Assembly (NCBI GenBank): GCA_009841075.1
Contig: VXMP01000085.1
Location: 1-42,692 of the forward strand
Direction: 5' to 3'
DNA length: 42,692 nucleotides
Origin: Acidimicrobiia bacterium
GTDB lineage: Bacteria > Actinomycetota > Acidimicrobiia > Spongiisociales > Spongiisociaceae
Positions 17,054 through 41,261 of this stretch are shown piece by piece. The notes beneath the pieces are model-generated. The model had not been told where the DNA came from and did not search any database. It worked only from the letters and a program-made list of their open reading frames with translations. Positions within the stretch are counted from its first letter, which is position 1; each line of letters starts with the position of its first letter. A program made the position numbers and the translations under genes.

Positions 17054-18616
17054 CTACCAGCGGGTTCCCTGGCCGGTCACCTCTTCCACCGGAAGGGCGA
17101 TAGGCAAGCGGGACCGGATCCACTCGTCCTGGGCCCGGCTGATATGAGTGGGGAAATAGGTTTTCATCACCTCTTTCACATATTCATGGGCTCGCTCGGC
17201 CGAACTCTTTGCCCCGGCATCCCGCCAATCATCCGGGCTGTTACGGTCGCCGATGGCCGGATAGATGTATTCCCGTTGCATCAGGTGGAGGGTTTGGTCG
17301 CTCCCCAGAAAATGCCCGGGACCCTCAACGGTTTCCCGAATCACGTCTTTCGACAGGGTGTAGTCGTTGATGTCCACCCCCCGAATGGTGCGGATTACGG
17401 CACCGAGCATGTCGTTGTCGATCACCAGCGCCTCATGCGAATAGCCCAGCAACGACCCCAGCATCCCCGCCGACTCATACACAAGATTGGTTCCCGCCTG
17501 GCCGCACAGCAAGGTGGTCATACCCTTTTCATAGCCGGCCTGGTTGTCGGGGAGCTTGGAATCGGCCATACCTGCCGCCACACACGAAGGAAGGCCCAGC
17601 CAGTTGGCTATCTGTCCCGCTGCGGCGTTGAGGACACCCGATTCACCCGACCCGCCGGTCATGGCACCGGTACGCAGGTCCGACACGAACGGCCAAAGCC
17701 CCATGGCGCAGGGGTGCCCGGGTGAGATCAGGTTCACGTTGGTCAAACCGGCCAAACACTCCGCCACGGCCTGAACCAGCGAGCCGCCCAGCGCCGCCGG
17801 CGAGGTGGCACCTGCTTGACCGGCCGACAAAATGTTGATCGGCATGCCGGCTTCTATCTGGGCGACCATGCACTCGTTAGATTCATAGGCGAAGCGAAGG
17901 GGAGGCACCACGAAGGTGTTGTTGGCGCACACGAAGGGTCGCTTCCGGTACTCCCCCTCACCGCCCAGGACATAGTCGTACATCTCGACTACCTCATGGA
18001 CGTTTTGGGGTTGGAAAAAGGAGGTCCCCTGCGGTTTGTCGGTTCCCATCATGGTGATGTAGGCGGTATTGATATCCACATCCCGAGCCTCCTGTAGGTC
18101 ACGGGTCACCAGGGTGCGCACGAAAAAGTGGATGTTCTCCAAGGTGTTGTTAAGGCGAGCGGCATCGTATAGATCAGCGGTGGTACTGGGGTTGAACACC
18201 CGCTTTTGGTAGTCGAGCACCAGGACCGCGGCACCTGCCGTTCCGAAGTGGGTCTTGTTGCCGGAGAGTTCGATGCTCTTGTCCTCGTCTAAACCGAACC
18301 AAACCCACTCTTTGGCGGCCTTTTCCTCGACCACTCTTTGGACCACCGAACGGGGATAGTGCAGGCGGTTGTTGTCGTCCAGATGGCCACCGGCGTTGGT
18401 AACCACCTTGGTGAATTCGGGGATGGGATCGCCCATACCGATTTCTTCGATGAGGTCCAGGGCGGTTTCATAGACCCGTTCCATATCCGATTCGGTCAGA
18501 GGGCGGTAGGCACCACCTTCCATTCCCGGCCAGATAGCCCGTTCTTCCTCGGTGGGCCCTCTTTGCCGGGCGGCTATTCGAGCGGCCCGGCCGCCGCCTC
18601 GCTTTCGCCTGGCCAT
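17054..18616 (-). CDS. MttB-family (trimethylamine/betaine) methyltransferase lacking pyrrolysine
   Basis: 520 residues of the trimethylamine methyltransferase (MttB) superfamily, a TIM-barrel enzyme that moves a methyl group from a quaternary or tertiary amine to a corrinoid protein. Family-like stretches include GTAGAAVLVLDYQ, NILSAGQAGATSPAALGGSL and MTGGSGESGVLNAAAGQIA. No in-frame UAG occurs, so this is the non-pyrrolysine branch, whose characterised member MtgB uses glycine betaine. The N-terminus is rich in Arg/Lys. The ATG overlaps the stop of the upstream flavoprotein by one base (TGATG), indicating translational coupling. No corrinoid protein or corrinoid activator gene is present here, so an unlinked or different acceptor must be used. 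Confidence 0.85.
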   Translation of the reverse strand: MARRKRGGGRAARIAARQRGPTEEERAIWPGMEGGAYRPLTESDMERVYETALDLIEEIGMGDPIPEFTKVVTNAGGHLDDNNRLHYPRSVVQRVVEEKAAKEWVWFGLDEDKSIELSGNKTHFGTAGAAVLVLDYQKRVFNPSTTADLYDAARLNNTLENIHFFVRTLVTRDLQEARDVDINTAYITMMGTDKPQGTSFFQPQNVHEVVEMYDYVLGGEGEYRKRPFVCANNTFVVPPLRFAYESNECMVAQIEAGMPINILSAGQAGATSPAALGGSLVQAVAECLAGLTNVNLISPGHPCAMGLWPFVSDLRTGAMTGGSGESGVLNAAAGQIANWLGLPSCVAAGMADSKLPDNQAGYEKGMTTLLCGQAGTNLVYESAGMLGSLLGYSHEALVIDNDMLGAVIRTIRGVDINDYTLSKDVIRETVEGPGHFLGSDQTLHLMQREYIYPAIGDRNSPDDWRDAGAKSSAERAHEYVKEVMKTYFPTHISRAQDEWIRSRLPIALPVEEVTGQGTRW

Positions 18617-21033
18617 CAGGCCCTCAACCGTTCGCTCGCAGGATCCCAGACCGCCTCTTCCAGCACGGTGGCCGTCCTTCGGCGGTTCATCACCCCCACC
18701 TCAAAAGTCGAGCCGGGTGCCTCAAACCTCGGGTCTACATAGGCGAACAGGATGCTTTTGCCCACCGAATGCGCCCAGGCACCGCTGGTGGTTATCCCCA
18801 TAATCCGGTCGCCGTCGTAGGTGGGTTCGTTGCCCAGACAGTCGGCATCACCGTCATCCAACTCGGCATACACCAGCACCATACTTAGGGGCTCGGCCTG
18901 GTCACGGCGGGACAGGGTGGCGGCCTTGCCCTGGAAATCCTTGCTGTAATCCACGAAGCGTCCCAGTCGGGCCTCGACCGGGGTGATTTCGGTGGTCAGC
19001 TCCGACCCGTGTGCCTTGTAGGCTTTCTCCAGCCGCATGATGTTCATCGCCCGGCTTCCGAAGTCCACCATCCCGTGAGAATCGCCCACCCCCCGGATGG
19101 CCTGATAGGCGTCCATCATGCGATCAAGAGGTAGGTGGAGTTCCCAGCCCAGCTCCCCCACATAGGAGACCCGCAGGGCGATGGCGGGTACGCCTGCCAC
19201 CTCGATCTCCTGGCCGGTCAGCCAAGGGAAATTCCGATTGGAAAGGTCGGTGTCGCATAAACCGGCCAGAACGTCTCGGGCCTGGGGTCCGGTGACGGCC
19301 AGGATGCCGGTCCGGTCGGTCACATCCGTAACGGTGACCTCCTCCCCGTCCCGAATATGGGAGGTGAGCCAGTCGTAGTCGTGCCATTGGGCGGTGATAG
19401 CCGAGTTCAGATAGAAGCGCTCCGGCCCCAAACGGGTAATGGTCATCTCCGATTCGATACCCCCCAAAGAGGTGAGCATATGCACCAGCCTGATACCACC
19501 GTCACGGGCGGGTAGCCGGTTGGCCGACAACCGATCCAGCAGGCCAGACGCATCGGGACCGGTAACCTCGAACTTGGAAAAGGCGGTGAGGTCGGCTATC
19601 CCGACCCGATCACGGATCGCCCGGACTTCCACTCCCACCTCGTCATGGGCCGAGGAGCGCCGGAAGGAGTAGACCTCGGGGTTAGGGGAGAAGTACATGA
19701 CCCGTTCCCAGCCCCACACCTCCTGCCATTGGGCACCTTTGGCATCAAACAGGTCGTAGAGAGGGGTTTTCTTCATGGGGCGTCCGGCGTCCCGATACTC
19801 GAAGGGCATACGAACCTGATACATCTCGTGGAACTCGTCTATCGAACGCTCGTGGGTGTAGCGTCCGGGAGCGTAAGGGCCGAACCGGCGAGGGTCCATG
19901 CCGGCCACGTTGATCTCGGTCTGGCCGTGCACCATCCACTGGGCCAGATATTTACCGGCCCCGGGGCCTTGGGTGATGCCGATCGAAGCTCCGGCGCAGT
20001 ACCAGTAGTTGCGTAGGCCCGGGGCCGGTCCCATCAGGAAACCGGCGTCCGGGGTGTGGGTAATCGGCCCGGACACCACCTGTTTGATACCGGCCCCGGC
20101 GAAGCAGGGGAGACGCTGTGCGGCCAGATCAAGCCAGGGGAGCAACCGGTCGAGCTCCACCGGAGTAAGGTGGAAGGTCAGGTCCCAGTCGATCCCTTCC
20201 ACCCCGTATTCCTTGGCGTCCTCCCGTTCGTATGGTCCGATCACCAGACCGTTGTGTTCCTGCCGGTAGTAGCAGGACGCCCGCGGGTCTCGGACTACGG
20301 GGTGTTCCTTTTCGAGGGCGGCCACCTCTTCGATGTCTTCGGTGACCAGATATTGGTGGATTACCGACTCGATCGGCACATCCAAGCCCACCATCGCCCC
20401 TAGTTGGGGGGTGTAGGAACCGGCTGCGTTCACTACGTGCTCGGCCACGATCCGGCCCTTCTGGGTGATCACCTCCCAGCGACCGTCCTCCGTCTGGTTC
20501 ATGTCGGTGACCCGATTTTTCCGACTGATCTCAGCTCCCAGGTTGCGGGCACCCACCGCCATGGCGTTGGTAGCGGCGGAGGGATCGGTCCAACCATCGC
20601 CCGGGGTCCAAAGGCCCAGATTGACGTCGGGTTTCAGGTCGAGCAGAGGTGCCACCTCGGGTATCTCGTTCGGCCCCAGCAGATGCGCCTCCACCCCGAT
20701 CGCGGCCAACATTCCGGCCACGTAGTAGAACCAGTCCACCTCGTCGGGGCTGCGGGCCAGGCGTACCGCCCCGCAGCCGTGCCATCCGGCGTGCATGCCG
20801 GTCTCCTCGTGGATTTTCTGGTAGAGGTCGGCGGTATCACGGTGTACCTTGGCGGTGTTCAGGTCGCCGATGAAGTGGGGGATAAGCCCGGCGGCGTGCC
20901 AGGTGGATCCGGAGGTGAGCTCGTCCTTTTCGATCAGGAGGGTGTCGGTCCATCCTTCATGGGCGAGGAAATAGAGCAGACCCACCCCCATGGCCCCTCC
21001 GCCGACGATCGCTACCTGGACCTCTTCACGCAT
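18616..21033 (-). CDS. Dimethylglycine/sarcosine dehydrogenase-like FAD-GcvT protein
   Basis: 805 residues with two parts. The N-terminal half is a DAO-type flavoprotein: AIVGGGAMGVGLLYFLAHEG (dinucleotide fold) and SGSTWHAAGL, where the His corresponds to the covalent FAD site of mammalian dimethylglycine dehydrogenase. The C-terminal half (about 430-800) is an aminomethyltransferase (GcvT-like) domain with tetrahydrofolate-binding features, including YVGELGWELHLP and MNIMRLEKAYKAHG. The family oxidatively demethylates dimethylglycine or sarcosine and passes the one-carbon unit to tetrahydrofolate. Its downstream partner is the MttB-like gene, and a betaine transporter lies upstream. Exact substrate is inferred from context only. 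Confidence 0.87.
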   Translation of the reverse strand: MREEVQVAIVGGGAMGVGLLYFLAHEGWTDTLLIEKDELTSGSTWHAAGLIPHFIGDLNTAKVHRDTADLYQKIHEETGMHAGWHGCGAVRLARSPDEVDWFYYVAGMLAAIGVEAHLLGPNEIPEVAPLLDLKPDVNLGLWTPGDGWTDPSAATNAMAVGARNLGAEISRKNRVTDMNQTEDGRWEVITQKGRIVAEHVVNAAGSYTPQLGAMVGLDVPIESVIHQYLVTEDIEEVAALEKEHPVVRDPRASCYYRQEHNGLVIGPYEREDAKEYGVEGIDWDLTFHLTPVELDRLLPWLDLAAQRLPCFAGAGIKQVVSGPITHTPDAGFLMGPAPGLRNYWYCAGASIGITQGPGAGKYLAQWMVHGQTEINVAGMDPRRFGPYAPGRYTHERSIDEFHEMYQVRMPFEYRDAGRPMKKTPLYDLFDAKGAQWQEVWGWERVMYFSPNPEVYSFRRSSAHDEVGVEVRAIRDRVGIADLTAFSKFEVTGPDASGLLDRLSANRLPARDGGIRLVHMLTSLGGIESEMTITRLGPERFYLNSAITAQWHDYDWLTSHIRDGEEVTVTDVTDRTGILAVTGPQARDVLAGLCDTDLSNRNFPWLTGQEIEVAGVPAIALRVSYVGELGWELHLPLDRMMDAYQAIRGVGDSHGMVDFGSRAMNIMRLEKAYKAHGSELTTEITPVEARLGRFVDYSKDFQGKAATLSRRDQAEPLSMVLVYAELDDGDADCLGNEPTYDGDRIMGITTSGAWAHSVGKSILFAYVDPRFEAPGSTFEVGVMNRRRTATVLEEAVWDPASERLRA

Positions 21034-21166
21034 TTAGTTCTCCGGATTCGGAAGTAGGAGAGATTGGTTTCCCGGGCAATGGTAGTAACCCGGTTTCAAA
21101 ACTGCTGAAAATACTGGCCGGTCGGATTCCTGCCGGTGGGGCCGGGATTTCTGGTTACGGATAGAA

Positions 21167-21196
21167 GAAAGGGGCCCCACCAAGGAGGCCCCTTTC
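21167..21196 (-). terminator. Strong intrinsic-type terminator after the betaine-binding gene
   Basis: GAAAGGGGCC (21167-21176) pairs perfectly with GGCCCCTTTC (21187-21196) around a 10-base loop. On the minus strand the stem is followed by TTCTAT, a modest T-rich tail. It lies 44 bp after the stop of the substrate-binding protein and separates that operon from the flavoprotein-methyltransferase pair. Confidence 0.8.
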
Positions 21197-21239
21197 GGTC
21201 TAAGTTCTTTGTTTACGGTTGGTCCGGGTCTGTGCGGGT

Positions 21240-23570
21240 TCAGCCGATCAGGCGAGCGGCGTAGAGCCAGGAGTCCGCGAGATCGCGGTTTTCGGTGATC
21301 CATTCGGCGGCGTGGCGTTTGATGTCGTCTTCTGTGTTCTCGCCGGTTTGCATGCGGACGTTTTGTAGGGCGACGTCGACCGGGCTGATGGTGAACAACT
21401 CGAACAGCCTGGCAGCGGCCGTGTTGGCGGCCAGGAAGTCGTTGTTGGCGATCACCGCGATATCAGCCGCGTCCCAACCCAGCAGACACGGGTCGGTAGT
21501 ACACCGGTTACCGATGGACGTAGGACCCTCGATCTGGGTTGGCGAGACCGACGGATCGGTATGGATCGAGACCCACACCGCGTTATCGCCCGGACGCAGA
21601 TCGCTCACATAGTGAGATGGCGCCCAGGTGTAGACCAGGTAGGGCTCACCCGCAGCGTCCTTGGCGATAGCGTCGGCGATCATCGCGTCGTAACCACCGA
21701 TATCGAACTGCTCGATGTTGTCCCATCCGGCATTCTCAAGCCAGGCGTTGATATTGGCGTGGCATCCCCATCCTTCCGGGCAGCCGTATATCTGGAGCAC
21801 ACCGTCACCCGGCGAAGCATCAGCCGACTCATACGCGGCGAACACCTCAGGATCGGACAACATGGCATCCAGAGTGGTCAACCCGTTCGCGTCAGCGAAG
21901 GCCTTGTTGGTGATCAGCCCCTGCACACCCGCTCTGGGCATCTCCCTGCCCAAGCGGGTGACATGGTCACTAACCACCGACCCGTCGGGCATCTCAGCAA
22001 CCAAGAACTGGTCATGGTTCGGGAGCCACGAGTTAACCCAGAAGTCAAACTCGCCGGTAGCCATCGACACATATGCATTAGACGGTGCCAACTCCAGGTC
22101 AGCCGGGTCGCTCACCTCATAGCCCAACTCGCCCAGCAACGCCGCATAGATAGCAGCCTGCATATAACCAGTCGACCAATTAGCCCGCGCCATCGTCACC
22201 GAAACCCCCGACCCCGGCGTATCGTCAACCGGCAGGGCGGCTATAGCCAGCCATTCATCAACGGTGGAACGGTTTTCGGTGATCCATTCGGCGGCGTGGC
22301 GTTTGATGTCGTCTTCTGTGTTCTCGCCGGTTTGCATGCGGACGTTTTGTAGGGCGACGTCGACCGGGCTGATGGTGAACAACTCGAACAGCCTGGCAGC
22401 GGCCGTGTTGGCGGCCAGGAAGTCGTTGTTGGCGATCACCGCGATATCAGCCGCGTCCCAACCCAGCAGACACGGGTCGGTAGTACACCGGTTACCGATG
22501 GACGTAGGACCCTCGATCTGGGTTGGCGAGACCGACGGATCGGTATGGATCGAGACCCACACCGCGTTATCGCCCGGACGCAGATCGCTCACATAGTGAG
22601 ATGGCGCCCAGGTGTAGACCAGGTAGGGCTCACCCGCAGCGTCCTTGGCGATAGCGTCGGCGATCATCGCGTCGTAACCACCGATATCGAACTGCTCGAT
22701 GTTGTCCCATCCGGCATTCTCAAGCCAGGCGTTGATATTGGCGTGGCATCCCCATCCTTCCGGGCAGCCGTATATCTGGAGCACACCGTCACCCGGCGAA
22801 GCATCAGCCGACTCATACGCGGCGAACACCTCAGGATCGGACAACATGGCATCCAGAGTGGTCAACCCGTTCGCGTCAGCGAAGGCCTTGTTGGTGATCA
22901 GCCCCTGCACACCCGCTCTGGGCATCTCCCTGCCCAAGCGGGTGACATGGTCACTAACCACCGACCCGTCGGGCATCTCAGCAACCAAGAACTGGTCATG
23001 GTTCGGGAGCCACGAGTTAACCCAGAAGTCAAACTCGCCGGTAGCCATCGACACATATGCATTAGACGGTGCCAACTCCAGGTCAGCCGGGTCGCTCACC
23101 TCATAGCCCAACTCGCCCAGCAACGCCGCATAGATAGCAGCCTGCATATAACCAGTCGACCAATTAGCCCGCGCCATCGTCACCGAAACCCCGGCACCTG
23201 GGCCCTTGGCTGCTTCCTCCAGCGCCATCTGGGCCTCTTCTGCGGCCATCTGGGCCTCTTCTGCAGTCTTCTGGGCCTCTTCTGCGGCCATTTGGGCTTC
23301 TTCTAGCGCCATTTGGGCTTCTTCGCCGCCCGCTGCTGCAGCCTCCTCGGCCTCCTCCAGCGCCATCTGGGCCGCCTCCAACTCGGCTTCGGCATCAGCC
23401 AGTGCCGCATTGGCCGCCGCTTCCGCGGCCTCGGCTGCTTCCTGGGCGCTTCTGTCCACGACAGTGGCAGGAGGCTGGGTGTCGGTCGTCGCCGGTTCAT
23501 CATCCCCGCACGCAACGGCCAGCAGTGCGAACACGGCCAGCAGCGCCAGTACCTTTCTTGCTCTAGTCAT
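21240..23570 (-). CDS. Betaine-type ABC substrate-binding lipoprotein with two identical ligand domains
   Basis: 776 residues from the ATG at 23570, chosen because AAGGAGAGG stands about nine bases upstream and the signal peptide then starts at once (MTRARKVLALLAVFALLAVACG; lipobox AVAC). Residues about 22-125 are an Ala/Glu/Gln-rich helix with heptad repeats, likely an extended stalk. Two OpuAC-type binding domains follow, each about 310 residues, with FDFWVNSWLPNHD and YLVYTWAPSHYVSD stretches typical of quaternary-ammonium binders. The two domains look identical in protein and DNA, with only the linker and last residues differing. The upstream permease and ATPase indicate glycine betaine, proline betaine or choline uptake. 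A tandem two-domain version is unusual. Confidence 0.88.
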   Translation of the reverse strand: MTRARKVLALLAVFALLAVACGDDEPATTDTQPPATVVDRSAQEAAEAAEAAANAALADAEAELEAAQMALEEAEEAAAAGGEEAQMALEEAQMAAEEAQKTAEEAQMAAEEAQMALEEAAKGPGAGVSVTMARANWSTGYMQAAIYAALLGELGYEVSDPADLELAPSNAYVSMATGEFDFWVNSWLPNHDQFLVAEMPDGSVVSDHVTRLGREMPRAGVQGLITNKAFADANGLTTLDAMLSDPEVFAAYESADASPGDGVLQIYGCPEGWGCHANINAWLENAGWDNIEQFDIGGYDAMIADAIAKDAAGEPYLVYTWAPSHYVSDLRPGDNAVWVSIHTDPSVSPTQIEGPTSIGNRCTTDPCLLGWDAADIAVIANNDFLAANTAAARLFELFTISPVDVALQNVRMQTGENTEDDIKRHAAEWITENRSTVDEWLAIAALPVDDTPGSGVSVTMARANWSTGYMQAAIYAALLGELGYEVSDPADLELAPSNAYVSMATGEFDFWVNSWLPNHDQFLVAEMPDGSVVSDHVTRLGREMPRAGVQGLITNKAFADANGLTTLDAMLSDPEVFAAYESADASPGDGVLQIYGCPEGWGCHANINAWLENAGWDNIEQFDIGGYDAMIADAIAKDAAGEPYLVYTWAPSHYVSDLRPGDNAVWVSIHTDPSVSPTQIEGPTSIGNRCTTDPCLLGWDAADIAVIANNDFLAANTAAARLFELFTISPVDVALQNVRMQTGENTEDDIKRHAAEWITENRDLADSWLYAARLIG
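21286..22208. repeat. 923-bp direct repeat, copy 1
   Basis: This segment appears identical base for base to 22270-23192, offset 984 bp (328 codons, in frame). I compared the copies by eye through most of their length and saw no difference; the encoded proteins are the same. It encodes the C-terminal ligand-binding domain. The copies end at 21285/22269 and 22209/23193, where the sequences diverge. Confidence 0.9.
22270..23192. repeat. 923-bp direct repeat, copy 2
   Basis: This is the partner of 21286-22208 and encodes the N-proximal ligand-binding domain. A 61-bp non-repeated linker (22209-22269) separates the copies. Confidence 0.9.
23221..23325. repeat. Five tandem 21-bp units encoding heptads
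   Basis: Five units of about 21 bp (AGCGCCATCTGGGCCTCTTC type) encode, on the minus strand, EEAQMAL/EEAQMAA/EEAQKTA-like heptads in the stalk of the binding lipoprotein. A diverged further unit lies just beyond. Copy-number changes would keep the frame and alter stalk length. Confidence 0.85.
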
Positions 23571-23628
23571 TCTGGATTCCTCTCCTTCGTTTGGTTGTTT
23601 TCTCGGTAGTTTACTGCCGCGCTTGTCC

Positions 23629-25815
23629 TCACGTCCGAGTGGTGGGCGCGGCCAACTCGCTGCCACTGGCCTTCGTCTTATCTTGTGTATCTGATCGATC
23701 GGGCTCGTGTTCCCCTTGGTAAACCTTCGTCCTCTGGAACTCCCTTAGAACCCCGCGCGCCGATGCAAAGAATAAGAACCCGGCCACCAGACACAGGAAC
23801 GCGCCTGGCCCGCTGACGAAATTGGGGTCGGAGACGCGAACAAGCGAGCTGATCCATCCCGCCGCCACCAGCATCACCCCCACCCCGACAGCCGCCACCC
23901 CTATGCTCCATCGCCAGCGTAGTTGCTCGTCCCGCCCGAACAATCCGGCTGCGGGCAGAGTGAGCAGGAGAGCCGCCACTCCCAGCCACAGAGTTAGGTA
24001 TCCGAGGCGGGGTCCCGCCCCGGAGAAACCGTCGGTACGCACGGGATTCTTCTCTTGCGCCTTGGCGGACAGCGCCGCGATCTGGGTGGCATTCTCCGCA
24101 GCTTTGGAGGGATCATCCTGTGCTTCTTGCTTCAGGCGGTCTAGTTCGGCCTGCACCTCGGGGGTGATTATCAACTCAGCCCGTTCGTCGACCGACCAGG
24201 ATGAGAGTCCGGCCACCACCAGCAACGCGAGGATCACAGCCGAGATGGTGATGCGGGTGATCGACACGGTGGACGGCAGCGGACGCAGCGGGCTGTAGGG
24301 GGCGTTTCGTGTCCATATCACGGCACCTGCCACGGCGATGATCCCGCTACCCAGAGCCACCCACGCTCCGATGCCGTGGCTGTAGGACACGACGCCTGCC
24401 GGCGAACCGATCCACACATATGCACCCGCCGACGCCAGCAGGCCGGCGGCGGAGATCAGAGCACCGTCGGCACCGAACCAGCGGGCCACCCGGCCCGGTC
24501 TCGTGAGCGTGGTTAGCGCCGAGGCCGCAATCACCAGACCGGCTGCGAGCACGGCCATCCCGAAGAAGCTACCCCCCTCGGCAGCCAAGCCGTTGAAGCT
24601 CGACCCGCTCAGGTCCAGGTCGGCCGCTCGGCCGTATGCCGAGACATGGCCCGCATCGTGTCCCCACGGTAGGAAGATGGAGATCACTGCCAGTAAGGAT
24701 GCAGCCAGACCGATCAGTACCCCTGCCCGCTCTGCGCTCCCCACCGCCGCCGGAGTCCCTTCATCGGCTTCGTCGGCCTCATCGGTGACGGTGTCCTCGG
24801 CGGGGCTCTCGTCCAGCAACGCCTCCGGATCCCGCCGGTGCACCCAGGCCTGGCGGATGCGGGCGAACAGGTTCGTACCATCTCCCGCCTCGGTCTGGGT
24901 TAGGCGGTCCAGGACCACCGCCACGATGAACAGGCCGAGCCCGGAGGAGGTCGACAGTGGTGTGTCAAGGTTCAAAACTGCCCTATACACGAGCAGGCCT
25001 AGCCCGCTGGCCCCCATAATGGCTGCGATGCCGATCATGGAGATGGCGAGGAGGAGGGTTTGATTGATGCCGGTCATGATGGCCGTACGGGCCAGCGGTA
25101 GCTGGACGTCAAAGAGGACGCGGACTTCGGATGCTCCGTAGGCGCGAGAGGCTTCGACTACGTCGGCCGGGACTTGGCGGATGCCGAGGTTGGTGAGGCG
25201 GATCAAGGGGGGAACAGCGAAAACCATGGTCACGATCGTGGCCGGCTCGGGCCCGAGGCCGAAGAAGAAGATGAATGGGATGATGTAGACGAAAGCGTGG
25301 ACGACCTGCATGGCGTCAAGGATTGGACGCACCACCCTCCAAACGCCGTCCACCCGCCCGCAGACGATGCCGACCGGGATCCCGATTATCACGCAGAGGG
25401 CGACGGCCACGCCGATCAGCCCGATGGTGGTGGTGGTCTCCTCCCAGAACTCGTTGCCCAGAAGCCCGCATAGCGCTAGCAGCACGGCAAGCCCGAATCC
25501 AACCCGCACGTTGCGGGTGATTATTCCCACTACCAGCACCCCTCCGCACACCAATATCCAGGACATGTCCGTGATCTCCCACCACGGGTGGTAATCGGGT
25601 CCGTCGACGAAGTTGCGGAACAGGAACGAGAAGGGCCATTCGATGATGTCGAACAGGATCCCGAAGTTGAGGATGATCCAGTCGATCATCTCGTCCATCC
25701 AGGATCCGAACGGTATCTCCCAGGAGTCGAGGGTTGCGTTGTCCCAGAACGGTGGGTTCTCCTCCGTAGCAGGACCCTGGGCGAGGGTGGCGGCCGCCGG
25801 GTTCAGGCCATTCAT
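23629..25815 (-). CDS. Betaine-type ABC transporter permease with extra C-terminal membrane region
   Basis: 728 residues, far longer than the usual ~280-300 for ProW/OpuAB permeases. Residues about 1-330 form the permease proper. The EAA loop reads VVEASRAYGASEVRVLFDVQLPLA, followed by GINQTLLLAISMIGIAAIMGASGLG. After an acidic linker (about 340-370, rich in DEADEAD) comes a second region with roughly seven or eight hydrophobic segments and, near residues 540-595, a soluble loop predicted helical (EVQAELDRLKQEAQ). I do not recognise this added region. The stop precedes the binding-protein start by 58 bp, and the ATG overlaps the ATPase gene by four bases (ATGA), so the three genes form one operon. 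Confidence 0.87.
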   Translation of the reverse strand: MNGLNPAAATLAQGPATEENPPFWDNATLDSWEIPFGSWMDEMIDWIILNFGILFDIIEWPFSFLFRNFVDGPDYHPWWEITDMSWILVCGGVLVVGIITRNVRVGFGLAVLLALCGLLGNEFWEETTTTIGLIGVAVALCVIIGIPVGIVCGRVDGVWRVVRPILDAMQVVHAFVYIIPFIFFFGLGPEPATIVTMVFAVPPLIRLTNLGIRQVPADVVEASRAYGASEVRVLFDVQLPLARTAIMTGINQTLLLAISMIGIAAIMGASGLGLLVYRAVLNLDTPLSTSSGLGLFIVAVVLDRLTQTEAGDGTNLFARIRQAWVHRRDPEALLDESPAEDTVTDEADEADEGTPAAVGSAERAGVLIGLAASLLAVISIFLPWGHDAGHVSAYGRAADLDLSGSSFNGLAAEGGSFFGMAVLAAGLVIAASALTTLTRPGRVARWFGADGALISAAGLLASAGAYVWIGSPAGVVSYSHGIGAWVALGSGIIAVAGAVIWTRNAPYSPLRPLPSTVSITRITISAVILALLVVAGLSSWSVDERAELIITPEVQAELDRLKQEAQDDPSKAAENATQIAALSAKAQEKNPVRTDGFSGAGPRLGYLTLWLGVAALLLTLPAAGLFGRDEQLRWRWSIGVAAVGVGVMLVAAGWISSLVRVSDPNFVSGPGAFLCLVAGFLFFASARGVLREFQRTKVYQGEHEPDRSDTQDKTKASGSELAAPTTRT

Positions 25816-26936
25816 AGGTATGTTTCTCGTTCGAAGCCGTCGATGAGTTGTTCGACTCGTCCCATTTCCTCCATGATGTGGCGGGGGTCGAGGTCTCCTA
25901 CCAATTTGCCGTTTTGGTCTATGACGGCGATGGGTAGTCCTCTGCCGGCTGCGGCGTATACGTCGTTGAGGGTTGTTTGGGGGGTGGCGGTGTCGAAGTC
26001 GTTACGGAGGGCGGCTGTCATGTCGGTGGAGCCGGTGTCGGCGGCTTTGACGCAGTCTCCGATGGTGAGGAGCCCGGTGGGCCGGCCGTGGGTGTCGGTG
26101 GCGAAGGTGCCACTACGGTCGCCGATGTGGGCCAGGGCTTCGGAGAGGGACATGTCAGGGTCGATGGGTTTGGGTTCCAACATGATTTCACCGCATTCGA
26201 TCACCCGGCCCTGGTCTACGTCTTGGACGAACTCGGCTACGTAGGCGGTGGCGGGCTCGGTGAGGATTTCTTCGGGGGTTCCGATCTGGATCACCGCGCC
26301 GTCTCGCATTATGCAAACCCGGTCGCCGATCCGCAGCGCCTCGTTGAGGTCGTGGGTGATGAACAGGATGGTTTTTCGAAGTTCGTTCTGGATTTCCATC
26401 AACTCGTCCTGCATCTGGCGGCGAATGAGCGGGTCAAGGGCGGAAAAGGCCTCGTCCATCAGGAGGATGTCGGGATCGGAGGCGAGCGCCCGGGCCAGCC
26501 CCACCCGTTGCTGCATCCCTCCCGACAATTCTCTGGGGGAGTAGCGGGCGTAGGGTTCCAGGCCCACCAAGGACAGTGCCCGTATAGATGCGGAGTCACG
26601 GTCGGCTTTGTCGACTCCCTGGACCTTCAGACCGTAGCCCACGTTGTCTATCACGTTACGGTGAGGGAAGAGGGCGAAATGCTGGAAGACCATCCCCATT
26701 TTTTCGCGGCGGAAGGCCTGGAGCGGGGCACCTTGGAGGGTTTGGACATCCGTGCCGTCCACCAGAACCTGGCCGGATGTGGACTCGAACAGTTTGTTGA
26801 CGGTGCGCAGGGCGGTGGACTTGCCGGAACCGGACAGTCCCATCACCACAAAAATTTCTCCTTGGGCGACCGAAAAGGAGACATCCCTGATCCCTATTAC
26901 GTGGCCTGATTGTCGCAGAACATCGTCCTTGCTCAC
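25812..26936 (-). CDS. Betaine-type ABC transporter ATPase with CBS pair (ProV/OpuAA-like)
   Basis: 374 residues from GTG 26936. The nucleotide-binding domain shows Walker A GLSGSGKST, signature LSGGMQQRVGLARAL, Walker B ILLMDEAFSALDP and the switch His in LFITHDLNEAL. The C-terminus (about 265-365) contains two CBS-like units (GLLTIGDC and PIAVIDQNGKLVGDLDPRHI), which in OpuA sense ionic strength. The substrate class is proline/glycine betaine or choline. The true N-terminus probably extends upstream: in-frame codons to 27044 encode ELIRLQSVYKIFGPQP, a hallmark of ProV starts, but no ATG, GTG or TTG is found there before the in-frame TGA at 27060-27062. Confidence 0.9.
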   Translation of the reverse strand: MSKDDVLRQSGHVIGIRDVSFSVAQGEIFVVMGLSGSGKSTALRTVNKLFESTSGQVLVDGTDVQTLQGAPLQAFRREKMGMVFQHFALFPHRNVIDNVGYGLKVQGVDKADRDSASIRALSLVGLEPYARYSPRELSGGMQQRVGLARALASDPDILLMDEAFSALDPLIRRQMQDELMEIQNELRKTILFITHDLNEALRIGDRVCIMRDGAVIQIGTPEEILTEPATAYVAEFVQDVDQGRVIECGEIMLEPKPIDPDMSLSEALAHIGDRSGTFATDTHGRPTGLLTIGDCVKAADTGSTDMTAALRNDFDTATPQTTLNDVYAAAGRGLPIAVIDQNGKLVGDLDPRHIMEEMGRVEQLIDGFERETYL

Positions 26937-29023: not shown

Positions 29024-39184
<10,161 letters not shown>

Positions 39185-39295: not shown

Positions 39296-39949
39296 TTAGG
39301 ACGGGGGAAAGGGTTGGGCCAGGGCGGCGGCGAAGGGCTGATTTTCCAGGTTGTCGAGCCGCCAGGTGGTTCCTGGCATCTGAGGGGTAGCGAAAGTGGC
39401 GGTCGGCTCTCCCTTGCGCATGGGTTTTGGTACCTGGAGTCGGGATACGTCTAGGGTGTGGCCGGTGCCGAAGGCCTTGATGATGGCTTCTTTAGCCGTC
39501 CAGAGACGGAGGAACCGGTCTAGCTTCTGATGGTCGGGTGAGGAGGCCAACTCGGCGCGTTCGGCGGGGGTGCACACCGTGGAGGCCAGCTCGTCAAGAT
39601 TGCGGCGGGGGGTACGCTCTTCGACATCTATGCCGACCGGTCGTCCGGTGGTGGAGATGGCGATCAGGCCGTGGTTGCCGCTGTGGCTGAGGTTGAAACC
39701 GACCGGTACCGGACGGCCTTCCAAACAGGCGTAAGGCTTGCCCTGTTCGGTAGCAGCAAAGGTGATCTGATCGGTGCGGCATCCGAGCTTGTCTGCCAAA
39801 ATGGAGCGGAGAGCCGCCCGGCAAAGGGAGAACCGGCGGCGGGGTCCTGGATACAGATAGGCTTTCAGGCGGGAAAGTTCCAGTTCGTCCAAAACGGCCA
39901 AGGCGGCCTGCTCGTTCCCCTCATCGGCCGACAGGTCGACATGCAGCAC
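39296..39949 (-). CDS. Sfp-type 4'-phosphopantetheinyl transferase
   Basis: About 217 residues from GTG 39949, preferred because GGGGAG lies six bases upstream; a GTG at 40003 would give 235 residues but has no ribosome binding site. Motifs of the Sfp class are present: RRFSLCRAALRSIL, FNLSHSGNHGLIAI, VGIDVEERTPRR and LWTAKEAIIKAFG (W-x-x-KEA). The enzyme loads coenzyme A phosphopantetheine onto carrier proteins. It lies 111 bp upstream of the PKS on the same strand and beside the free-standing ACP, so both are likely substrates. A four-codon ATG frame ending TAG overlaps the chosen start (TAGTG). Confidence 0.9.
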   Translation of the reverse strand: MLHVDLSADEGNEQAALAVLDELELSRLKAYLYPGPRRRFSLCRAALRSILADKLGCRTDQITFAATEQGKPYACLEGRPVPVGFNLSHSGNHGLIAISTTGRPVGIDVEERTPRRNLDELASTVCTPAERAELASSPDHQKLDRFLRLWTAKEAIIKAFGTGHTLDVSRLQVPKPMRKGEPTATFATPQMPGTTWRLDNLENQPFAAALAQPFPPS

Positions 39950-40104
39950 TAAGGTCTCCCCATATTGCCCCTCCTGATAGGGCGACCACCAAGTTCCCTC
40001 CACTATTACCGACCGGATTTACCAGGAGTCATGCGAATCGGCCTTCCCGGTTCCATACCCTATACTCCAGGCAATTACCTAGCTTAAGAAAGGCGGTAAA
40101 CACA

Positions 40105-40350
40105 ATGCCCTCCATCTCCCAGCGTATCAAGACGGTGGTAGTTGAGAATGTCGAGGTCGACGGCCAGGCTCTGGACGTCCCGGATGACTTGAATATCAGC
40201 CTTACCGATGCCGGCGTGTCATCTATGGACATAGTGGCCTTGGCCAAGATGATCGCCCAGGAGTTCGACATGGAGTTCTCCGCCGAGGACTGTGTCCAAC
40301 TCGGTAGCCTGAGGGCGGTGGCAGAGGCACTGGAGAGCCGGTCCGCCTAA
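40105..40350 (+). CDS. Free-standing acyl carrier protein
   Basis: 81 residues with an ACP fold. The attachment region reads DAGVSSMDIVALAKMIAQEF, with the second Ser aligned to the phosphopantetheine Ser; the usual Asp before it is Ser. The ribosome binding site AAAGGCGG precedes the ATG. A TATACT at 40061-40066 could be its -10 box. The gene is divergent from the transferase and its stop overlaps the stop of the hydrolase (3 bp shared space). Because the second PKS module lacks an ACP, this protein may serve that module in trans (inference). It could instead belong to fatty-acid synthesis, but no FAS genes are nearby. Confidence 0.85.
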   Translation: MPSISQRIKTVVVENVEVDGQALDVPDDLNISLTDAGVSSMDIVALAKMIAQEFDMEFSAEDCVQLGSLRAVAEALESRSA

Positions 40351-41261
40351 GATTTCGATCCCTTGGATGAGGCGGGTAAGGAGTCGATAAAGTCGGCCAC
40401 CATCTCGGCGCATTTCACCGGGTCCTCCAACGGGAGGAAATGGGTGGCATCGGGCAGGAAATCGTAATCTACGTTGACAACCTCGCTTAGGTCAAGGGTG
40501 GGTAGATAGGAGAACGGCACCAACGGATCCGACCCGATCACCTTTATCGGGCAGCCCAGCTCACCGAAATCCACCAGCACCGAATAGGAACTGGCGTAAT
40601 CAACGATGCGAGCCTCGTATTCCGGCGGGCAACGTAGCCGAAAGCCATCCCCGGATTCGGCCCGACGTAGGGTGGTTCTGGCTACCAGATCCATAACGCC
40701 GGGAACCACCCGGCGGTAGAGCGGTGCAAACCCCATTAGTTCCACGAATTGTTCGGTCGTCTTGAACCGGTCGGTCCGAGAGCGGGCGGCGGTGGCCAAC
40801 CTTTGGGCGGAGGCATCAAATTCTTGATAACTCCTGCCTGGCTTGCACAGCGGCGGATCCAAGAGAACCAAGCCGGAGAAGTTGCCTCCTTTGGTGGGGG
40901 ACAGAAGGCTTACCAGGCCCGATATGGAATGAAACACACCCACCTTCGGCTCCGGCCCGAAAGCTTCGTCTACGGCCCCCATGATGAGATCATGATCTCG
41001 GAAAAAGTCGGGCAGGGTGTGGTGTTCGATCGACCCTATGTCATTCCAGCCATGATTCCTCAGGTCGTAGACGACCACGTCGAAGTCATCCAGGAAAAGC
41101 GACCAGAAGGGGAAGTAGGCGTCGATCGCCAGCCCGTTGCCATGGCTGAGCACCATCCGGTGGCCGGACGGGTCCCCGTATCGCCGCAGAAGGGTAACGG
41201 TTCCATCCTCCAGCACTACTTCGAGAATCTCGTCCGGCTCGGGAACCTGCCAGTTAGCCAT
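40347..41261 (-). CDS. Alpha/beta-hydrolase, possible product-releasing or editing enzyme
   Basis: 304 residues with an alpha/beta-hydrolase layout. VLSHGNGLAIDAY provides the oxyanion-hole HGN, DLRNHGWND follows, the nucleophile elbow is VFHSISGL (Ser in a non-classical F-H-S-x-S), the acid is probably in VIGSDPLVPF, and the His is in DATHFLPLEDP. All triad residues can thus be located. It has no signal peptide and probably acts in the cytoplasm. It ends tail to tail with the ACP gene. The PKS lacks a thioesterase, so this may release the chain, but a haloalkane-type or esterase role is equally possible. Confidence 0.75.
   Translation of the reverse strand: MANWQVPEPDEILEVVLEDGTVTLLRRYGDPSGHRMVLSHGNGLAIDAYFPFWSLFLDDFDVVVYDLRNHGWNDIGSIEHHTLPDFFRDHDLIMGAVDEAFGPEPKVGVFHSISGLVSLLSPTKGGNFSGLVLLDPPLCKPGRSYQEFDASAQRLATAARSRTDRFKTTEQFVELMGFAPLYRRVVPGVMDLVARTTLRRAESGDGFRLRCPPEYEARIVDYASSYSVLVDFGELGCPIKVIGSDPLVPFSYLPTLDLSEVVNVDYDFLPDATHFLPLEDPVKCAEMVADFIDSLPASSKGSKS

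Follow-up and report, generated by a model that had tools for sequence, protein, structure and literature searches.

A conserved set of PKS, discrete ACP, PPTase and hydrolase genes, with an unusual terminal PKS module, in an Acidimicrobiia bacterium

Gene content of the locus

The stretch of DNA analyzed (the window) comprises 42,692 nucleotides of contig VXMP01000085.1 (assembly GCA_009841075.1) from an Acidimicrobiia bacterium. It encodes a large PKS, a discrete ACP, an Sfp-type 4'-phosphopantetheinyl transferase (PPTase) and an alpha/beta hydrolase, as follows.

29024-39184, minus strand: PKS, very probably of Sup type, 3386 aa, with the Pfam domain order KS1-AT1-DH-CMT-ER-KR-ACP-KS2-AT2 (AT2 dead)
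39296-40003, minus strand: Sfp-type PPTase, 235 aa (ACPS superfamily, Pfam E-value: 5e-19)
40105-40350, plus strand: discrete ACP, 81 aa, pantetheine attachment residue Ser40 in G-V-S-S-M (PP-binding, Pfam E-value: 3e-8)
40347-41261, minus strand: alpha/beta hydrolase, 304 aa (Abhydrolase_6, Pfam E-value: 1e-13)

The first-pass annotation had called the three smaller genes as neighbors of the PKS. All three ORFs are confirmed at these positions with significant Pfam matches and the neighborhood is present, but its layout has to be corrected: the ACP gene lies on the strand opposite to both of its neighbors and to the PKS. It is divergent from the PPTase gene and convergent with the hydrolase gene, which it overlaps tail to tail by 4 bp, and its start is preceded by a plausible Shine-Dalgarno sequence (AAAGGCGG). 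Because of this orientation, the window ACP does not share an operon with the PKS, which is itself flanked by the PPTase gene and a formate-THF ligase-like ORF. The window genome encodes a full type II FAS including FabD, and its own AcpP is found elsewhere in the genome, within a FabD-FabH-FabG-AcpP-FabF operon.

The window carries several further features. Genes for a trimethylamine methyltransferase family protein, an FAD/GCV_T oxidoreductase and a betaine ABC transporter stand in a row at 17054-26936, and to judge by their sequences they may serve methylated-amine use. Within this stretch, a glycine-betaine-binding protein made of two near-identical halves (21240-23666, minus strand) is encoded by a direct DNA repeat whose two copies match without a difference over at least 900 bases (900 of 900), which is either a very recent duplication or an assembly artefact. 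Two ORFs adjoin the hydrolase gene at the contig end (41306-42690, minus strand). The first has a weak match to the C-terminus of a type IIG restriction-methyltransferase and the second contains an ERERERERE run; the pair probably represents a restriction gene that is broken or frameshifted.

Relatives of the PKS, searched in one genome per species, are encoded at 18 loci (54-71% identity), all of them in MAGs. These belong to Actinomycetota, Chloroflexota, Gemmatimonadota, Acidobacteriota, Spirochaetota and other phyla and are labeled Acidimicrobiia, Caldilineaceae, Gemmatimonadota, Spirochaetaceae, Vicinamibacteria, Deltaproteobacteria or plain 'bacterium'. The window genome and the relative MAGs other than the jk18x bins are presumably also of sponge origin, an attribution that is partly inference. 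The bin names jk18x, carried by some of the relatives, trace to Ircinia sponges (PMC9531527).

Domains of the PKS and its relation to known systems

The domains of the PKS, all encoded on the minus strand, are as follows.

37835-39124: KS1, with Cys, HGTGT and NIGH intact in all relatives
36545-37519: AT1, with the active-site motifs GHSVGE and AFHS intact
35465-36394: DH domain (Pfam)
34265-34984: C-methyltransferase (CMT), with LEIGAGTGS
32615-33544: ER domain (Pfam)
32045-32614: KR domain, with the catalytic Tyr replaced by His (GQANHAAAN)
31535-31774: PKS-internal ACP (Pfam), with LGMDSLM
30215-31459: KS2, with Cys and both His kept and HGTGT eroded to HATGS
29027-30004: AT2 remnant, with the catalytic Ser replaced (GHGSGG) and the small subdomain carrying the catalytic His deleted

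The PKS is most similar among NCBIfam models to NF045894 (type I PKS), followed by Pks2 (phthioceranic acid synthase). The AFHS motif in an AT domain marks the use of malonyl-CoA. As AT1 has this motif, the methyl branch of the product would derive from the CMT. Solved KR structures shown in the alignments have Tyr at the catalytic position that is occupied by His in the window, and His is found in all aligned Sup copies except that of Vicinamibacteria L017, which has Tyr; this substitution makes full reduction questionable. The L017 PKS also lacks an ER, its KR following directly after the CMT linker (L017:14878-15617).

The domain order bears out the earlier observation that the terminal module has no ACP of its own. 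This module also contains a second AT, which the first-pass annotation did not mention and which is catalytically dead. The catalytic Ser and the His-bearing small subdomain of AT2 are missing from every copy that could be aligned or read, ruling out a working AT, and in L005, L013 and L065 the domain is pared down to linkers. KS2 retains its active Cys in every copy. The HGTGT motif is invariant in KS1, but no KS2 has kept it unchanged (the window has HATGS and other copies have HGVGT, HGPGN, HGAGS or NGVGS); its His is retained in the window and most relatives and replaced by Asn in two Gemmatimonadota loci, L008 and L018. Among the relatives KS2 is under strong purifying selection (omega [dN/dS] 0.06-0.14), similar to that on KS1, and AT2 evolves faster (0.27-0.36). 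Even in the pair with Asn, KS2 is still constrained (dN/dS 0.137). KS2 is thus not a dead remnant, and since it is constrained in spite of having neither AT nor ACP of its own, it must have some useful role. The KS2 domains form a single clade across phyla (support 100/100), which fits one old module duplication.

The cluster very probably represents a Sup-type system, and so one already known as a kind rather than a new one. Sup PKSs are very abundant in sponge metagenomes, with methyl-branched fatty acids as their predicted products (PMC4245539, PMC3908369, PMC6151786); in many sponge microbiomes their genes are reported to dominate among the PKS genes, and in 2014 the organisms that carry them were described as unresolved (PMC4245539). 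The KS motifs DPQQ and HGTGT have been used to recognize them (PMC4245539, PMC3908369), and KS1 of the window has both DPQQR and HGTGT. Like SupA, the window PKS is a small single-polypeptide type I PKS, and its CMT and reductive domains suit methyl-branched fatty acids, with the caveat of the altered KR. The assignment rests on architecture, sponge context and KS motifs as described for the family. A sup clone has been recorded with a permease, SupE, in the range of 557 aa (PMC3908369). Relatives encode a 577-aa permease next to the PKS, which may correspond to SupE. The window genome lacks this permease, whereas every same-genus relative has it, and in L003 and L004 it is found by the PKS, ACP and PPTase genes. 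In the literature searched, to which the founding Sup papers do not belong, no paper mentions supB or supC alongside sponge PKSs.

A second sponge-symbiont system, Swf, was considered and ruled out on the basis of both domains and neighbors. SwfA is a single-module PKS (KS-AT-DH-ER-KR-ACP) whose ACP requires an Sfp-type PPTase (PMC3908369). It lacks the CMT, the second KS and the DPQQ motif that are all found in the window PKS, and it is accompanied by swfB (reductase and sulphotransferase) and sometimes swfC, whereas the neighbors of the window PKS are not swfB. Mas and Pks2, the mycocerosic and phthioceranic acid synthases, likewise make methyl-branched lipids and are reducing type I PKSs; they are the best solved relatives of the window KR and are among the best NCBIfam matches. 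These enzymes use methylmalonyl-CoA instead of a CMT, and they are not known to have a KS2 or a discrete ACP.

The discrete ACP, PPTase and hydrolase and their conservation

The attachment-site Ser is present in all 16 aligned discrete ACPs. It is preceded by Ser, Ala or Pro, whereas AcpP and the PKS-internal ACP have the Asp of a DSL motif there; this Asp occurs in none of the discrete copies. NCBIfam acyl carrier models score the discrete ACP far below cut-off. A tree was built with 16 FAS ACPs (15 from 14 genomes and E. coli AcpP) and eight PKS-internal ACPs for comparison. One branch (84/100) sets off the FAS ACPs and another (100/100) the internal ACPs, so that the discrete ACPs remain together with a genus-specific paralogue, apart from both groups; deep branching within the discrete ACPs is poorly supported. 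Grouping with housekeeping FAS ACPs, which would have counted against the first-pass annotation, is thus not seen for the discrete ACP. Seven genomes of the window genus carry another discrete ACP from this family, encoded away from the Sup PKS (for example at L077:351-593, at L078:7089-7331 beside a methyltransferase gene, and at L079:7526-7768); the window genome does not.

The PPTase is of the two-part Sfp/AASDHPPT type (PF22624 and PF01648) and matches Sfp (PDB 1qr0) with an E-value of 2e-11. In several Sup-bearing genomes among G138 and G140-G146, the hosts of L005, L007-L011, L013 and L014, a single PF01648 protein was found, and in some of them it is the Sup-linked PPTase. Such a lone PPTase may also serve the housekeeping AcpP.

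The catalytic triad of the hydrolase (Ser112, Asp245 and His274) is invariant across 21 homologues. The enzyme matches no recognized thioesterase family in Pfam or NCBIfam, and a sequence search of the PDB gave one weak match. A structure model of moderate quality (pLDDT 68) is most similar by Foldseek to the acyl-CoA hydrolase MpaH, PA1622 and the curacin thioesterase (TM about 0.5), matches that are weak because the model is only fair. Cleavage of an acyl thioester is plausible. In some genomes the hydrolase is present in two copies.

The arrangement of the four genes at related loci is as follows.

L005, L007, L010, L013: PKS-ACP-PPTase-hydrolase in a row on one strand
L003, L004, L016: PKS-ACP-PPTase on one strand, with permease and hydrolase nearby in L003 and L004
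L008, L018, L019, L020 (Gemmatimonadota): hydrolase and ACP after the PKS, on the other strand
L015 (spirochaete): ACP and PPTase upstream of the PKS

In the one-strand loci L003-L005, L010, L013 and L016, the ACP gene lies directly behind KS2-AT2. In the window genus, hydrolase and ACP stand tail to tail, mostly on a different contig from the PKS, and the PPTase is mostly beside the permease. Gene order therefore varies across loci while gene content is constant.

Co-occurrence was assessed in 138 genomes of the window's order, with a hydrolase orthologue defined by at least 42% identity (the next matches are at about 30%). The ACP is found in 14 of the 138 and the PPTase in exactly those 14; hydrolase orthologues are found in the same 14 and in one more, G108. 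The PKS CMT is present in 12 of the 14, and in the remaining two (G022 and G032) the PKS KS1 is at or near a contig edge. Co-occurrence of the four genes is significant by Fisher's test, with p = 2e-19 by genome and 3e-5 by genus, the latter being fairer to relatedness; if only CMT matches are counted, the values are 1e-15 and 2e-3, respectively. In genus g45, all four genes are present in three genomes and absent from two, and G108 has a truncated PKS and neither ACP nor PPTase. The Sup PKS of G108 (L070:7292-10246) is reduced to KS1 and a piece of AT beside a truncated permease, which may be true decay or misassembly. Among the Sup-bearing genomes of the other loci, which belong to other phyla, all 14 encode a hydrolase relative (best match 49-55%) and all 14 a PPTase.

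The conservation of the four genes that the first-pass annotation called for is thus upheld, its refuting condition (absence of the ACP or the hydrolase from related PKS loci) did not hold, and the four genes are well supported as a real conserved unit. The description of this unit as self-contained was not strictly right: the genome encodes a complete type II FAS, FabD included, relatives have a permease, and in most same-genus relatives the genes are scattered over several contigs.

Proposed chain transfer by the terminal module and alternatives

In the model that we favor, to which we assign a probability of roughly 55%, the finished branched chain would pass in trans from KS2 to the discrete ACP, and its release would fall to the hydrolase. 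Module 1 would make a C-methylated, reduced acyl chain on the internal ACP, with malonyl units supplied via AT1 and a SAM-derived methyl group via the CMT. The chain would then shift to the Cys of the terminal KS2. The dedicated Sfp-type PPTase would convert the discrete ACP to its holo form, and KS2 would transfer the chain onto it. Finally, the hydrolase would cleave or transfer the acyl group off the ACP, yielding a free branched acid or passing the chain to FAS or lipid synthesis. We infer the direction of chain flow, the contact between KS2 and the ACP, the hydrolase substrate and the product.

The discrete ACP is the obvious partner for KS2, since it is encoded right behind it in some genomes, and erosion of the condensation motif with the Cys fixed favors a hand-off over further condensation. 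The findings are consistent, if indirectly, with the first-pass proposal of an ACP acting in trans with KS2 and a hydrolase releasing the chain. A precedent is offered by algal type I PKSs, in which a terminal KS0 with altered HGTGT precedes a hydrolase-like domain and has been proposed to act in chain release or transfer (PMC4661987). In the algal KS0 the His is lost and the Cys shifted, whereas KS2 always keeps the Cys and mostly the His, and its ACP and hydrolase are separate genes. The pattern of a non-elongating KS0 (Cys kept, HGTGT His lost) is not seen in the window KS2, the His being lost only in L008 and L018.

Some observations stand against this model. The window ACP is encoded on the strand opposite to the PKS, and genomes of the same genus mostly have ACP and hydrolase off the PKS contig. 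The hydrolase matches no recognized thioesterase family, and its structure model is of moderate quality. In addition, to judge by the retained His, KS2 of the window and most relatives could still condense. KS2 and the discrete ACP might then carry out one extra condensation, with malonyl loaded in trans by AT1 or FabD and the beta-keto-acyl-ACP passing to type II FAS or hydrolysis. An AT-less module of this kind would resemble those of trans-AT PKSs, which likewise combine a KS with an AT remnant or linkers and need an AT in trans; the reduction of AT2 to linkers in L005, L013 and L065 and the complete FAS with FabD fit such a module. Unlike trans-AT PKSs, however, the window PKS has an intact cis AT1 in module 1, and the window cluster lacks the discrete AT gene expected of a trans-AT system. 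Moreover, no KS2 has an intact HGTGT, and selection on the domain persists in L008 and L018, where the His is gone. On balance, we regard an extra condensation as unlikely.

The discrete ACP could instead act upstream, bringing a starter acyl group (e.g. from FAS) to KS1, with KS2 in some other role. The ACP gene is indeed near the KS1 end of the PKS gene in the window and in L057 and L065, and in the tree the discrete ACPs are closer to type II ACPs than to the PKS-internal ones. A starter role is nevertheless improbable, as it would leave a conserved ACP-less KS2 without a partner and does not suit the loci in which the ACP directly follows KS2-AT2. That the ACP is simply a housekeeping carrier or a chance neighbor, as its opposite strand in the window might suggest, is almost certainly wrong: the tree and the separate AcpP in the full FAS operon rule out the former, and co-occurrence across the order genomes rules out the latter. 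The hydrolase might be an editing enzyme (type II thioesterase-like) or an unrelated lipid hydrolase rather than the release enzyme, given its two copies in some genomes, its usual position outside the PKS operon and its failure to match a thioesterase family. That the triad never varies and that the hydrolase co-occurs almost perfectly with the PKS make this somewhat unlikely.

If chain transfer by KS2 is indeed its role, the terminal KS of Sup systems might, more tentatively, be seen as a condensing domain converted to chain transfer, through death of the AT and decay of the condensation motif after duplication. It would off-load the branched chain to a dedicated trans-acting ACP that belongs to a separate family and lacks the DSL Asp; this ACP would be activated by its own PPTase and cleared by its own hydrolase. 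If true, such off-loading would be distinct from the use of a cis thioesterase, reductase or condensation domain, and an unusual terminal module in a known Sup-type system merits a biochemical test. The terminal step is testable and the gene set is defined in assembled genomes of several phyla, so that PKS, ACP, PPTase and hydrolase form the set to co-express; in a heterologous host that lacks the trans ACP and the PPTase, such a PKS could stay silent.
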